From Nordella sp. HKS 07 (lineage in GTDB: Bacteria > Pseudomonadota > Alphaproteobacteria > Rhizobiales > Aestuariivirgaceae), in contig NZ_CP049258.1 in NCBI RefSeq assembly GCF_011046735.1, forward strand, positions 2,312,001-2,376,000: DNA of 64,000 nt. Reading direction: 5' to 3'. Position 1 is the first letter of the stretch. Every line of letters begins with the position of its first letter. A model generated the notes under the pieces. It was not told the origin of the DNA, made no database searches, and saw only the letters and a program-made list of their open reading frames with translations. The position numbers and the translations under genes are program-made. Positions 18,526 to 22,817 of the stretch are shown here, piece after piece.

Positions 18526-19374
18526 CTAGTTCGGCTGAGTAGTCGGAGGCGGAGTCCCCACGGTCGTCGGCGGCGCCGTGCCGGTGTTGCTGTCCGAGCT
18601 GCCCTTGGTTTCCTTGGCTTCCTTGAAGCCGACGAAATCGAGGATGCGGTTGCGCGGATCGTCCTCGCGGTGACGGCGGATCAGGCTCTTTTCGCCCCCG
18701 CCGAAGTAGAAGCTGAGACCGCCGGTGACGTTGTAATAATCGTCTTCGCCGATCTTTGCGCCGAAGGACGCGGTGAGCCCGTCGGCGAACTGAAACTCCA
18801 TCCCAGCCCGCAGGAATTCCTGGTCGCCGATGATGCTGCCGCCCACCGACAGCCGGAAGTCGTCGGTCGCGTAGAAAGCGGCATCGACGATGCCAAAGCC
18901 GTCGCTATCCGAGCCGTCGTCGGAATCGATGTCGACATAGCCGCCCCAGGCTTCGAGGCTGAATTGGCCGAAATAGAGCTCGGCCTCAGGTCCGACCGCC
19001 CAGATATTGGTGTCGCCAGCATCGAAATAGCCGCCCGTTACGCCGAGCAGATAGGACTCGGGGTCGCGCGTGAAGAGATGCGCGGCGCCGCCATAGGTCG
19101 TCCTGTCCAGCTCGTCGATCACGCCGACATCGGCCTGGAAGCCGAAATCGCAGCCCAGGGGCATGCTGAGCGAACCCAGTCCGCTCACCAGCGCATCGCC
19201 GCCCTGGTCATCGTTTTCGGAATATCCGCCAAGGGCCTCGACCTTGCCGTTGAAACCCGAGACTGCGCAGAGCGGCTCATTGATGATGTCGGCGGCCTGG
19301 ACCGCGGGCACCTGATTGATCAAGGCAAGAGCAAGCGCCGAACTCGCGCTCAGCAGCGACGTCTTCAAGGACAT
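18526..19374 (-). CDS. Exported beta-barrel-like protein of unknown function
   Basis: A 282-residue protein with a Sec signal peptide (hydrophobic stretch to AVQA, cleavage near 28), then alternating, glycine- and aromatic-rich strands such as ESYLLGVTGGYFDAG, AELYFGQFSLEAWGGYVDI and YYNVTGGLSFYFGGG, typical of an outer-membrane barrel. After the barrel comes a basic segment and a Thr/Pro-rich tail (TAPPTTVGTPPPTTQPN). Two cysteines (in EPLCAVSG and PLGCDFGF) might form a disulphide. It does not match a porin family I can name. It is the gene after the kinase-like/glycosyltransferase fusion on the same strand, 200 bases downstream. Confidence 0.7.
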   Translation of the reverse strand: MSLKTSLLSASSALALALINQVPAVQAADIINEPLCAVSGFNGKVEALGGYSENDDQGGDALVSGLGSLSMPLGCDFGFQADVGVIDELDRTTYGGAAHLFTRDPESYLLGVTGGYFDAGDTNIWAVGPEAELYFGQFSLEAWGGYVDIDSDDGSDSDGFGIVDAAFYATDDFRLSVGGSIIGDQEFLRAGMEFQFADGLTASFGAKIGEDDYYNVTGGLSFYFGGGEKSLIRRHREDDPRNRILDFVGFKEAKETKGSSDSNTGTAPPTTVGTPPPTTQPN

Positions 19375-19574: not shown

Positions 19575-22500
19575 CTAGACTGAGGAAGCGGTAGGAATCC
19601 ACGACAGGCATTCGTCCGCCAGCCTCAGGTATTCCGTATTTTCGGTCGCTGCGAAATTCTTCAGAGCGGCATCGAACAGCTCACAATAGGTCTGCGTTTT
19701 CTCCTCATCCTGCATGGGGAAGGTGCGCAAATGCTCGAACTCGAGCCTGGCCCAGCCATTGACGGGATCCGGCTCGCCACACCGACGCAGCAACGCCGAC
19801 TGCTTGGCGATCTGGGCATTCAACACCAGAGAGAACCGCCTTGTCATTGAAGAATTATCACCATGCAACCTATAGTCGACGAGCGCATCGGCCAGATTTG
19901 CCAGCTTGAAGCGTTCATCCAGACGTAGCCAAAGGTCCAAATCGCTCGCGACGTCGAATTGCCTCCTGAGACCGCCGCACTGCTCGAACGCCGCTTTCCT
20001 GATCATGGCCGCAGGATTGCCGATCGGGCCGACGGTCGCATTTTCGAGCGCCGCATGGCAGGCCTCGGCGGTGAGTGGATAGGAGGCTGTTTTCCCCGTG
20101 AGCTTTCCCTCGCGATCGATATACCGCAGGCTGCCGCCAAGAGCCGCAATGTCTTCGTTCCTCTCCATGAACGCAACCTGCAGCGCCAGTCTTTCCGGCA
20201 GGGCCACATCGTCATGATCGAGCCGGGCCAGCAGCGCGAATCGCGCTTCGGCGCTTCCCCGATTGAAGGCAGCCGCTTCGCCACCATTCTCCTGGTGGAT
20301 GACACGGACGCGCTTGTCGACTCGCGCATAGCTTTCGGCGACGGCGCCGGATGAATCGACCGATCCGTTATTCACGACGATCAGCTCGAATTTGCCGTGC
20401 GTCTGCAGAAGCACGCTCTCGATCGCCTGAGCGAGGTACGCCGCGCCATTATAGACGGGAATGATGACGGACACGCCTGTCTCGCCGCTCGCGGCCAAGA
20501 CGGCAGATGCCCGCCTTGCCTTCGGCACGGCCGCATTGCGGCTGAACACGATAAGATTCCGCTGATAGTGATCGTCGGCGCGGGGATCGCGGGCCAGCGC
20601 CGGACGCAAGCAATCCACGGGCCTATATCCGCGGCGCGTAAAGAGTGTAGTCCAGGAGGCGCGCAGCCGGTTTGTATCGATCGCACCGCGAGCTTCCGGT
20701 CGCGCAAAAGCGAATACGATGACCGGCGCGATAGAAGTGAGCCGCAAGACGAGTTGCTTGCCCTGCGTCGCCGAAGAGACGCCAGGAGGCTCGAAACAGC
20801 AGACGAGATCAGCCGCACGGGCGTCCGGGCCCCCTTCCCTCTCATCGTGCGCCGATGCAATGCCGAGGCGAGAAAATTCGCGCGCCCAGATCCCGGAGCC
20901 GCGCCCGATGCAGGCTACGGATTCGAAGGCGAAGTTATCGAGCAGGATCGGCACCGCGACTTCGGCGACGAAGCGCAGCCGCGCCTCGTTCAGATCGTAG
21001 GGTTCGTCATCGTCAATAACGTCCGATCTCACAGAATCGGGACTTTTGTCATCGCCCGATTGCACGGCCAGCTCCTTGCGGATGGTGGCAAAGATGCGGT
21101 CGGCTTTCTGCCATCCCAGAAGCTCACGGAAATGGTTGTGCATTTCCGCGCTATCCCAGCCGATCTCGTCAAAGCCGATGAGATAGTTGCGGATCCGGTC
21201 TTCCCATTTATTGGGATAGGGCGCTCCCATCGGCCGGCCAAAGCGATGCAGCCAGCGCAATGACGGCATACACAGCGTGCGGCCACCGGCTTGCCGGAAT
21301 CTCTCATGGATATACCCTTCCTCGCCGCCAAAGCCGCGGAAAGCCGGATTGAAACCGGGCCAAGCGCGTCGGCGGCAGGCAAAGACCCCGAGACCCTGCA
21401 AAGGAATCTCGAAAGGCTGCCCGTCGGACTCCAGCCCGCCGAGATCCTTGGCCCACTGCCCGAACATGCCGTCCCGCCAGCCTTCCGACCAATGAGTGCT
21501 GACCTTCGTGAGATCGTTGGAGATCATCGGCCCCTGAATCAGATCGATGCTGGAAGGCGCCGTACGGAAATAGTCGATGAGCTTCCTCAGGCTGCCCGGC
21601 GCGAGCAGCACATGGCAATCCATGCACAGCACGAATTCGCCGCCCGCTTCGCTGAAGACGCGGTCGCGCACGGCCGTTCCGGTCACATCGTCGGCGGGGA
21701 TGTAACGCAAATTCGCGACATCCTTCTCGAGATCCTTGAGTGCCGCGCCGCACGGTCCGTCGGGATGATTATCGATGACCAGAAACTCCACCTCTTCGAG
21801 GATCTCCGGATGGTAGAGGCGAATGGCCTGCAAGCTGAAATAGACGCCGTCATAGTCGTCATAGGTCGCCATGCCGATCGTCATGAAGGGCGAGAACCGC
21901 CGCGTGCTGCGTTCAGGAACGGGATGGCGGCGTGTAGATGCGGGGTCGGAGCGTCCGATTCCGGAGACGAACCGGTCCAACGCATCAGGTGACAGTTTCT
22001 CATCGATCACGAGCCTGACGAGCCGATCGAGCAGACCATCAATCTGCCGATAGTCGGAATAAGTGAGAGCGATGGCGGGTGTGTCCCGCGCCAGTTCGAC
22101 AATCCAGTAATCCGTTTCCAGGGGTGGCGACTGCAATTGCGCCTTGACGAGGCGCGCGGCGGAAGCAGTTTTGAGTTTTTCGATACGCGCGCGCGCATCC
22201 GGCACATAGCGGGGAAAAATGATCATCCCGCAGGGACAGGCATCGTCCCCGGCGCGCCAGGAGTCCTTGATACCAACATGAATCTGCGCGGCGGTACGGG
22301 CCATGGGCGCCGTGCCGAACTCGGCAAGCCCGACCAGATGAGCGGCGGCATCGGCGGCAAAGGTGAAGGGCGCCGGATAACCACCGACCGACCCGGCGTC
22401 ATCGACGACGGCGACCTGGTCATCGGCGATGAGCGCGAAACCCTTCTCGACGAACCACGCGGCGAGCGATGACTTTCCGCAGGCCTCAGGACCGGCGAGG

Positions 22501-22817
22501 AGCACGGCGCCGTCGCCCCATTTCACCGCGGCGGCGCGCAGTATCGGAACGCCTGCTTTTTCCGCGAGCCGGGTGGCGAGACAGGCGCGCAGGCGCTCGA
22601 GCACGTCGCCGCGCTTCAGTCCAGCCTCCCTCAGCCCACCATCGCCCGTCAGCACGTAGCTGCGATCACCTGCGTCACGGACGACGATCCTTTCATCGCC
22701 ACCGGAGAAGGTCGCATCACGCTTCAGGCTGGTGAGAAGGCCAGCGCTGAGCAGATGATGAGGCAGCTCGATCGCAACGGTGTGCTGACCCAATTGGACG
22801 ATGACTTCGCTCATCAC
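19575..22817 (-). CDS. HprK-like kinase / GalNAc-transferase-like / GT2 glycosyltransferase fusion, 1,080 residues
   Basis: Four segments can be read. Residues 1-270 resemble the HPr-kinase fold, with a P-loop GPEACGKSS (109-117) and an ADDQ acidic segment (131-134). Residues 310-545 form a GT-A glycosyltransferase resembling polypeptide GalNAc-transferases, with a DCH (DxH-type) metal motif (400-402) and GFGGEEGYIHERFRQAGG (497-514), then CMPSLRWLHRF. Residues 600-760 may be a degenerate methyltransferase (IGRGSGIWAREF, 642-653). Residues 782-990 are a GT2 domain, SVIIPVYNGAAYLAQAIESV and LDHDD (866-870). There is no membrane segment. The start is a GTG with AAGG upstream. It may build or modify a glycan or glycopeptide; donor and acceptor are unknown. 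Confidence 0.8.
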   Translation of the reverse strand: MMSEVIVQLGQHTVAIELPHHLLSAGLLTSLKRDATFSGGDERIVVRDAGDRSYVLTGDGGLREAGLKRGDVLERLRACLATRLAEKAGVPILRAAAVKWGDGAVLLAGPEACGKSSLAAWFVEKGFALIADDQVAVVDDAGSVGGYPAPFTFAADAAAHLVGLAEFGTAPMARTAAQIHVGIKDSWRAGDDACPCGMIIFPRYVPDARARIEKLKTASAARLVKAQLQSPPLETDYWIVELARDTPAIALTYSDYRQIDGLLDRLVRLVIDEKLSPDALDRFVSGIGRSDPASTRRHPVPERSTRRFSPFMTIGMATYDDYDGVYFSLQAIRLYHPEILEEVEFLVIDNHPDGPCGAALKDLEKDVANLRYIPADDVTGTAVRDRVFSEAGGEFVLCMDCHVLLAPGSLRKLIDYFRTAPSSIDLIQGPMISNDLTKVSTHWSEGWRDGMFGQWAKDLGGLESDGQPFEIPLQGLGVFACRRRAWPGFNPAFRGFGGEEGYIHERFRQAGGRTLCMPSLRWLHRFGRPMGAPYPNKWEDRIRNYLIGFDEIGWDSAEMHNHFRELLGWQKADRIFATIRKELAVQSGDDKSPDSVRSDVIDDDEPYDLNEARLRFVAEVAVPILLDNFAFESVACIGRGSGIWAREFSRLGIASAHDEREGGPDARAADLVCCFEPPGVSSATQGKQLVLRLTSIAPVIVFAFARPEARGAIDTNRLRASWTTLFTRRGYRPVDCLRPALARDPRADDHYQRNLIVFSRNAAVPKARRASAVLAASGETGVSVIIPVYNGAAYLAQAIESVLLQTHGKFELIVVNNGSVDSSGAVAESYARVDKRVRVIHQENGGEAAAFNRGSAEARFALLARLDHDDVALPERLALQVAFMERNEDIAALGGSLRYIDREGKLTGKTASYPLTAEACHAALENATVGPIGNPAAMIRKAAFEQCGGLRRQFDVASDLDLWLRLDERFKLANLADALVDYRLHGDNSSMTRRFSLVLNAQIAKQSALLRRCGEPDPVNGWARLEFEHLRTFPMQDEEKTQTYCELFDAALKNFAATENTEYLRLADECLSWIPTASSV

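Follow-up and report, generated by a model that had tools for sequence, protein, structure and literature searches.

A four-domain bacterial fusion protein with a polypeptide GalNAc-transferase-like domain as a candidate O-glycosylation enzyme for a neighbouring Thr-rich-tailed barrel protein

We propose that a four-part fusion protein encoded in the window (the whole stretch of 64,000 nucleotides of Nordella sp. HKS 07 analysed here) is probably a cytoplasmic protein O-glycosylation enzyme dedicated to the Thr-rich-tailed, barrel-like protein encoded beside it, with a GalNAc-transferase-like GT-A domain, here GT1, starting the glycan and an HprK-like domain serving in docking and not as a kinase. 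This model rests on the computed domain architecture and fold, the invariant motif residues, the pairing of fusion and barrel, and the Thr-rich neighbours found at about half of the loci of the family. The cytoplasmic location is our own reading. GT1 would work like a polypeptide GalNAc-transferase, with a UDP-sugar (most likely UDP-GalNAc or UDP-Gal) as donor and Thr and Ser in the Thr/Pro/Ser-rich C-terminal tail of the barrel as acceptor sites, after which the C-terminal GT2 domain would probably add the next sugar or sugars. Here the HprK-like domain probably does not work as a kinase and is kept to dock peptides, which would be a legacy of systems that process small exported peptides by means of an HprK kinase, a PqqD peptide chaperone and a nucleotidyltransferase. 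The modified barrel would then be exported, bearing a mucin-like glycosylated tail. The features of the locus are as follows.

19575 to 22817, minus strand: fusion gene, HprK-like / GalNAc-transferase-like GT-A / spacer / GT2, open for 1,080 codons
21954 to 22814, minus strand: HprK-like P-loop domain, residues 2-288, with K115 and D132-D133 present and R94 at the His position
21063 to 21890, minus strand: GT1, polypeptide GalNAc-transferase-like GT-A domain, residues 310-585, with DxH at 400-402, GFGGEE at 495-500 and H524
20514 to 20993, minus strand: spacer of no assigned family, residues about 609-768, alpha/beta pattern in the model
19836 to 20477, minus strand: GT2 glycosyltransferase domain, residues 781-994, with LDHDD at 866-870
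18526 to 19374, minus strand: proposed acceptor, apparently exported barrel-like protein of 282 aa (signal and barrel judged by eye), encoded by the gene that follows the fusion on this strand
18529 to 18600, minus strand: tail rich in Thr, Pro and Ser at the C-terminus of the proposed acceptor, SSDSNTGTAPPTTVGTPPPTTQPN

The uninterrupted 1,080-residue frame and four-part domain order described in the sequence-only reading both hold, the frame being open, the domains parsed and the orthologues unbroken, as do its motif positions (GPEACGKSS at 109-117, GFGGEEGYIHERFRQAGG at 495-512 and LDHDD at 866-870), with DxH at 400-402. The frame starts with a GTG followed by ATG as codon 2 (22814), and this ATG is probably the real start, as in the orthologues L009 and L010. 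These two and L011, from three other congeneric species, are 1,076-1,095 aa long, keep the same domain order and are 51-81% identical per domain, with third codon positions varying most in every domain. Since three congeners carry the fusion in one piece with this domain order, it is no assembly join of split genes, a possibility that the sequence-only reading had raised against itself. A fourth congener (87% complete, 600 contigs) holds no match to the fusion at E<=1e-20, no plasmid-borne relatives were found at the same threshold, and a scan for promoters and terminators gave signal near chance.

The resemblance of the GT-A domain to GalNAc-transferases, first noticed in the letters, now extends to the fold and to the motif blocks. 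The AlphaFold model of GT1 (residues 310-585) has a pLDDT of 94, and the best 50 of its 467 Foldseek matches in the PDB (E<=0.001) are all polypeptide GalNAc-transferases (best E=2.2e-13, TM by query 0.57-0.68, 14-19% identity in the fold alignments), a comparison made with this one query model, and in which an unrelated GT-A model might also match GalNAc-transferases first. D400, H402, E499, E500 and H524 are identical in 49/49 aligned GT1 members. The GT1 sequence profile matches GalNAc-T10 (E=7.7e-4), and the DSH, GGE and late-His blocks line up in that match; its top match in the PDB is not a GalNAc-transferase but a beta-1,3-GlcNAc-transferase (E=6.6e-5) and covers just the N-terminal half. 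The full-length fusion model likewise has GalNAc-transferases in all 50 Foldseek matches listed, which is uninformative on the spacer and the GT2 domain.

GT1 is thus alike to the GT27 polypeptide GalNAc-transferases (GalNAc-T2, T10) in fold and in its DxH, GGE and late-His blocks, and the candidate acceptors are alike in being Thr/Pro-rich. Unlike those enzymes, the fusion is bacterial, has no signal or membrane anchor by eye and has no ricin-type lectin domain (no Pfam match to one at E<=1 in the 1,080-aa protein), and GT1 shares its chain with HprK-like and GT2 domains or, among relatives, with PqqD, GT25 or GalE. Membership in GT60 was considered and rejected: the 49 members match seven Pfam families at E<=0.1, none of them of the GT60 kind, judged by the Pfam model that we take to stand for that family. 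DxH is reported in place of DxD in GT27 and GT60, both of which carry out polypeptide Ser/Thr O-glycosylation, and GT60 polypeptide alpha-GlcNAc-transferases, reported from prokaryotes and protists, are alike to the proposed enzyme in both respects (PMC7185993).

The next gene on the strand encodes an apparently exported barrel-like protein, as the earlier reading had it. The Thr/Pro-rich tail of this neighbour went unremarked there. In 464 kb of this genome only two of 3,091 six-frame ORFs, this one included, have within their last 60 residues a 20-mer that is rich in Thr/Ser/Pro/Ala/Gly/Val/Asn and contains at least seven Thr. Fusion and tailed barrel are paired in 4/4 species, in which the body of the barrel is conserved and the tail varies in sequence, with 8-9 Thr kept. 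Homologous barrels adjoin HprK-GT1 genes in L058 (54% identity) and L015 (31%) and lie one gene off in G056 (36%). No solved relative of the tailed barrel was found, the single match having E=0.6.

The similarity of the N-terminal part to HPr kinases, on which the earlier parsing had been staked, is supported by Pfam Hpr_kinase_C (E=3.3e-5, 23.9 bits, under the curated cut-off of 33.3), by NCBIfam HprK_rel_A (TIGR04352, HprK-related kinase A; E=3.4e-9, 36.2 bits, under the curated cut-off of 200) and by a profile built from 28 HprK-like domains, which retrieves solved HPr kinases (1ko7, E=5.2e-6). Lasso-peptide kinases require a His-Lys-Asp-Asp set, according to PMC9266682, and this set is incomplete in the window protein (R94, K115, D132, D133). 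In a column placed through alignment with the HPr kinase 1ko7, the lasso kinases themselves lying outside the alignment, the His position holds Arg in the window protein and two congeners, Ser in the third and Asn in L058. Because Arg replaces the His of HPr and lasso-peptide kinases, the sequence does not support an active kinase in the HprK-like domain of the window fusion.

An active HprK-like domain would phosphorylate the acceptor, and both transferases would build on the phosphorylated residue, in the manner of pseudomycoidin, which has PsmK for phosphorylation and requires PsmN for the addition of a hexose. We regard this as unlikely. It could draw on the P-loop Lys and the Asp pair retained in the window protein, on the system in which a lasso-peptide kinase and then a nucleotidyltransferase-like protein act on a peptide Ser (PMC9266682), and on the 12/25 fused HprK domains (the window protein among the 25) that keep His-Lys-Asp-Asp/Glu. 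An NTP_transf_5 gene is adjacent at 11/12 loci with this intact set versus 0/13 without it (Fisher p=2.7e-6), a difference that comes to two independent contrasts on well-supported branches, with a median sign-test p of 0.5, once kinship is considered. The window protein belongs with the latter, and the sole NTP_transf_5 of its genome lies in another cassette at 5.76 Mb; the lost His and this pattern of association both argue against a kinase in cis. To our knowledge, moreover, GalNAc-transferase-like enzymes need no phosphorylated acceptor. The kinase and its phosphorylated intermediate are the part of the earlier interpretation that lacks support; its domain parsing, its GalNAc-transferase resemblance and its acceptor processing are supported. 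The HprK-related kinase A system and lasso-peptide tailoring (PadeK/ThcoK, PsmK/PsmN) are alike in the HprK-like domain, in small exported peptide-like acceptors and in the PqqD and NTP_transf_5 of relatives' loci (PqqD near or fused in 21/53, NTP_transf_5 in 13/53); the window lineage differs in lacking the catalytic His and in adding a GalNAc-transferase-like enzyme.

Behind GT1, the spacer had been read as a possible degenerate methyltransferase, which found no backing: sequence searches brought up nothing in the PDB at E<=10 and, for four members, no methyltransferase among the Pfam families at E<=1, and only the alpha/beta secondary-structure pattern of the model is compatible. We have accordingly dropped a SAM-dependent methyltransferase as a candidate for lack of a sequence match. 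The C-terminal GT2 domain is confirmed by PF00535, which scores 141.5 bits against the whole protein (cut-off 23.3, E=3.2e-41, best stretch 783-944), and its DxD motif is intact in LDHDD. It is 38% identical to the GT2 domain encoded beside the HprK-GT1 gene in L022, and in the full-length model the half that contains it is of poor quality.

GT2-family enzymes are mostly polysaccharide makers, and the closest solved match of this domain is chondroitin synthase, so that both GT domains might build a lipid-linked or surface-polysaccharide glycan, with the barrel as exporter only or a chance neighbour. That reading seems improbable to us, as 0/11 neighbouring ORFs scanned is a polysaccharide gene, in keeping with the absence of a surface-polysaccharide cluster first reported, and the DxH motif of the middle domain is that of peptide O-glycosyltransferases. 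The tailed barrel, furthermore, persists in L011 although none of the other genes there up to 10 kb away clusters with a gene of L009 or L010, and Thr-rich neighbours recur across the family.

An ORF with a strict Thr-rich tail lies within 2.5 kb of GT1 at 26/53 other loci and is absent from that distance at 27/53, where looser inspection finds acceptor-like genes at about nine of the 27 and none at the rest. Such ORFs number 31 in 226,562 bases near GT1 against 6 in 311,204 bases beyond 5 kb, an approximately 7-fold higher density (p=2.8e-7 with ORFs treated as independent), under a criterion fixed after part of the data had been inspected and with at least one strict match that looks spurious. 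They encode two unrelated types of candidate acceptor, namely small proteins with an RR signal and barrels, and by record titles their loci belong to Alpha- and Gammaproteobacteria, Burkholderiales, Desulfobulbaceae and an actinobacterial MAG. Three congeneric relatives of one lineage (G533, G561, G607) have HprK-GT1 with an adjoining barrel-like gene that lacks the Thr-rich tail, and no strict tail occurs in the stretch examined. That the tails are unmodified low-complexity linkers, near the gene by chance or through a common mobile or exported-protein region, would suit their variable, repeat-prone sequence, these three relatives and the 27 loci with no strict match, but is very improbable given the near-versus-far enrichment within the same loci, its taxonomic span and the two unrelated acceptor types. 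The Thr-rich-tailed neighbours instead lend support to the processing of a peptide or glycan acceptor that had been suggested from the letters. Among ten sampled candidate acceptors the search for a known family gave only a Tat-signal model, above cut-off in 2/10; their other matches (PqqD-like, Ig-like, glue- or mucin-like, low-complexity) are weak and most plainly due to chance.

One locus, L032, has GalE fused to GT1, and four others (L016, L018, L037 and L056) have it at a distance of up to 3.5 kb (5/53 loci in all), which is a circumstantial sign of the donor sugar; GalE-like matches also occur beyond 5 kb in two loci, and none is found among the 11 neighbours scanned around the window gene. 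The family is patchy, with record titles placing it in Hyphomicrobiales, Desulfobulbaceae, Acidobacteria, Gammaproteobacteria and Streptomyces. GT1 is present in 1/385 genomes sampled by class and 1/398 by phylum, its own genome each time, and in 8/397 sampled by order, of which three are new and have no strict Thr-rich tail; G620 and G685 are the same contigs as L012 and L058. Searches of the open-licence PMC literature found no title or displayed abstract on the bacterial family or on a pairing with Thr-rich acceptors, which is weak evidence given that scope.

Autotransporter heptosyltransferases and the GtfA/B enzymes of serine-rich-repeat adhesins glycosylate exported adhesins in the cytoplasm, and the modification by an adjacently encoded enzyme proposed here is alike, although the enzyme families differ. 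A GalNAc-transferase-like enzyme beside an exported protein with a Thr-rich tail hints at an overlooked bacterial form of mucin-type sugar attachment. More tentatively, as a possibility that we take seriously and hold less firmly than the local model, bacteria of several phyla may have a mucin-type pathway in which HprK-like or PqqD peptide-binding modules direct a GalNAc-transferase-like enzyme that densely glycosylates Thr/Pro-rich peptides or tails in the cytoplasm before export. The window lineage would then have kept its HprK-like domain as a catalytically dead docking module, joined initiation and extension in one chain and taken an outer-membrane barrel as its acceptor in place of a small RR-signal peptide. 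If true, the cassettes of HprK-related, PqqD and nucleotidyltransferase genes would gain a concrete kind of substrate, and the enzyme family would be the functional equivalent in bacteria of the enzymes with which animals initiate mucin glycosylation and might offer a soluble bacterial tool for mucin-type glycoprotein synthesis.

The gene under study is one continuous frame in the window:

19575-22817, minus strand: fusion gene of 1,080 codons, open throughout

The sequence-only reading took it for a single-chain fusion, and the fusion is real. A search of genome contigs found the full domain order, as intact frames, in three congeners among 52 relatives (Rhizobiales bacterium Y, L009; Aestuariivirga sp. 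YIM B02566, L010; Taklimakanibacter lacteus, L011), with 62-69% identity to the window protein over the best segment. Searching 60 related genomes gave the same identities and lengths for congeners G001, G003 and G002, and no match in a fourth congener, 87% complete. The gene is single-copy in its genome (one contig, 7.18 Mb). Pfam and NCBIfam assign about 79-257 to an HprK-like domain, 395-454 weakly to a glycosyltransferase and about 783-990 strongly to GT2. Identity between the window and the three congeners is 51-66% for the HprK domain, 77-81% for the middle GT-A domain (GT1, residues 310-585), 56-63% for the spacer and 66-72% for the GT2 domain, with most differences at third codon positions in every domain. 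Third-position G+C of the fusion gene is 0.72, against about 0.79-0.87 in the larger neighbours, although the gene is common to the congeners.

GT1 is the conserved core: outside the genus its identity to the window is 44-63%, against 24-34% for HprK. We counted 53 further GT1 loci, a figure that excludes the window locus and three duplicates. Some of them are near-copies (e.g. L038/L039, L046/L049), and contig ends truncate many. HprK is fused N-terminal to GT1 in 24 of the 53, the three congeners counted, and GT1 stands alone or with other partners in 29. A Pfam scan covering 12 of these 29 found GT1 fused to PqqD (L030, L031, L035, L060) and to a GT25 domain (L031, L033, L035, L038, L046, L060); the PqqD and/or GT25-type fusions are possible initiation-plus-extension chains. 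HprK_rel_A is a gene of its own adjoining GT1 in L035, and an HprK-GT1 frame in L013 (9074-11677) carries almost 300 additional N-terminal residues.

GT1 looks like a polypeptide GalNAc-transferase, as first read from its sequence, and the model matches and invariant motif residues agree. Its structure model (mean pLDDT 94) finds GalNAc-transferases in all of the best 50 of 467 PDB matches (E<=0.001), and D400, H402, E499, E500 and H524 show no substitution in 49 of 49 aligned rows. The GT1 profile matches GalNAc-T10 at E=7.7e-4, with the DSH, GGE and late-His blocks aligned; its top match, a beta-1,3-GlcNAc-transferase (E=6.6e-5), covers the N-terminal part only. Passages of PMC7185993 report DxH in GT27 and GT60, both of which perform polypeptide Ser/Thr O-glycosylation.

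The candidate acceptor is encoded by the adjoining downstream gene (18526-19374, minus strand), alone among 11 scanned neighbouring ORFs in matching no Pfam or NCBIfam family; the other 10 belong to ordinary families, including a UbiH-like hydroxylase, formate-THF ligase, gamma-glutamyltranspeptidase, a GGDEF/EAL protein, an ammonium transporter and FtsK. By eye it comprises a Sec-type signal, a barrel-like body and the tail SSDSNTGTAPPTTVGTPPPTTQPN. Orthologues in the three congeners are 72-77% identical and end in GTSTGTSTSTSTSTSTFNPS, NNTGTGTNTQPPPTTSPPFTGTFPG and SSSGTSTGTGTSTVTSTPGPTGAPGPTGAPG, differing in letters and alike in kind. A survey of 464 kb of its own genome, made up of the window and 20 sampled stretches, gave 3,091 six-frame ORFs; 2 of these, the barrel among them, have at least 7 Thr in a 20-mer of suitable composition within their last 60 residues. 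Homologous barrels adjoin HprK-GT1 genes at two loci: the L058 barrel shows 54% identity and has 13 Thr in a 20-mer, and the L015 barrel shows 31% and is linked through an ambiguous codon to the following frame. A third homologue (36% identical), in G056, stands one gene removed from HprK-GT1, and its tail has many Ala, Ser and Thr residues. Three newly sampled congeneric genomes, G533, G561 and G607 (loci L111, L112, L113), have HprK-GT1 with an R-K-D-D-type site and an adjoining barrel-like gene without a Thr-rich tail.

Across the 53 loci, a Thr-rich-tailed ORF lies within 2.5 kb of GT1 in 26: 17 of 24 with fused HprK against 9 of 29 without. Leaving the intermediate zone uncounted, 31 such ORFs fall in 226,562 bases within 2.5 kb and 6 in 311,204 bases farther than 5 kb away; at least one near match (L053) and one of two in L027 resemble spurious frames, and one of the six far matches (L012) resembles a genuine acceptor. 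A typical acceptor is a small protein with RR, a hydrophobic stretch and an LPxxWTKPVVxxVxxPAHA-like motif. The rest consists mainly of Thr, Pro, Ala and Ser, so a mucin-like peptide could be nearly all that the mature product contains. Of 10 acceptors sampled, 2 exceed the cut-off of a Tat-signal model. Looser inspection added acceptor-like genes in L015, L026, L031, L038, L039, L042, L048, L051 and L059; none was noticed in L025, L028, L029 or most remaining loci without HprK, nor in the stretch read of newly sampled congeneric genomes G533, G561 and G607. Acceptor-like proteins in L042, L046 and L049 have a PqqD-like N-terminal part (a weak match in L046) before the Thr-rich stretch, and would combine chaperone and substrate in a single chain.

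By BLAST, PqqD is fused to GT1 or within 3.5 kb in 21 of the 53 loci, NTP_transf_5 in 13 and HprK in at least 26, and none of the three was found farther than 5 kb away in any locus. The window's genome has a second HprK-related cassette:

G000:C1:5758000-5761000 (L100 8088-10723), minus strand: RR-signal-like protein, PqqD-HprK frame and NTP_transf_5

Its small protein is 92 aa long, RR-signal-like and contains a Gly run. In this cassette partners of the same kind accompany a different low-complexity peptide; the genome's one GT1 match at E<=1e-40 is in the window.

The sequence-only reading had suggested, as speculation, that the kinase-like module in cis with the transferases points to a phosphorylated intermediate; the evidence here disfavours this. 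According to passages of PMC9266682, HprK-like kinases phosphorylate Ser of lasso peptides and require a His-Lys-Asp-Asp set, and hexose addition requires PsmN, a nucleotidyltransferase-like protein. Counting that of the window protein, 12 of 25 fused HprK domains keep His-Lys-Asp-Asp/Glu, as do all three aligned separate HprK genes; the window protein has R94-K115-D132-D133, and G533, G561 and G607 read by eye as R, K, D, D, with NTP_transf_5 not found in the stretch read. NTP_transf_5 is adjacent in 11 of 12 loci with the intact set against 0 of 13 others (Fisher p=2.7e-6), of which L026, L028 and L058 have less than 1 kb on one side and ten (window plus nine) at least 1 kb on both; extending the G056 locus still revealed none. 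These labels cluster on the tree (5 changes), and the contrasts are non-significant because only 2 independent ones fall on starred branches. We conclude that kinase activity is unlikely in the window protein, whose HprK-like domain may instead have been kept for docking the peptide.

A polypeptide O-glycosyltransferase is a catalytic kind already known, in eukaryotes, and passages of PMC7185993 report GT60 from prokaryotes too. Among the papers listed by searches of an open-licence library there was no account of the bacterial GT1 family, its RiPP-like partners or Thr-rich acceptors, and Pfam and NCBIfam searches did not show them as named families. A UDP-Gal or UDP-GalNAc donor is suggested solely by GalE, which is fused to GT1 or lies next to it in 5 of 53 loci; in one of these, a Bradyrhizobium frame (L032 8402-10885), GalE (UDP-glucose 4-epimerase, above the NCBIfam cut-off) precedes GT1. 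Weaker GalE-like matches lie beyond 5 kb in two further loci. BLAST relatives of a gene read by eye as sulfotransferase-like lie within 3.5 kb of GT1 in L019, L021, L040 and L050, and sulfation of the glycan is possible. The window GT2 domain is 38% identical to the GT2 beside the HprK-GT1 gene of L022. We propose, as a probable model, that in the cytoplasm GT1 would attach the first sugar to Thr/Ser of the barrel tail, that the GT2 domain would extend it, and that export of the barrel would follow its glycosylation.
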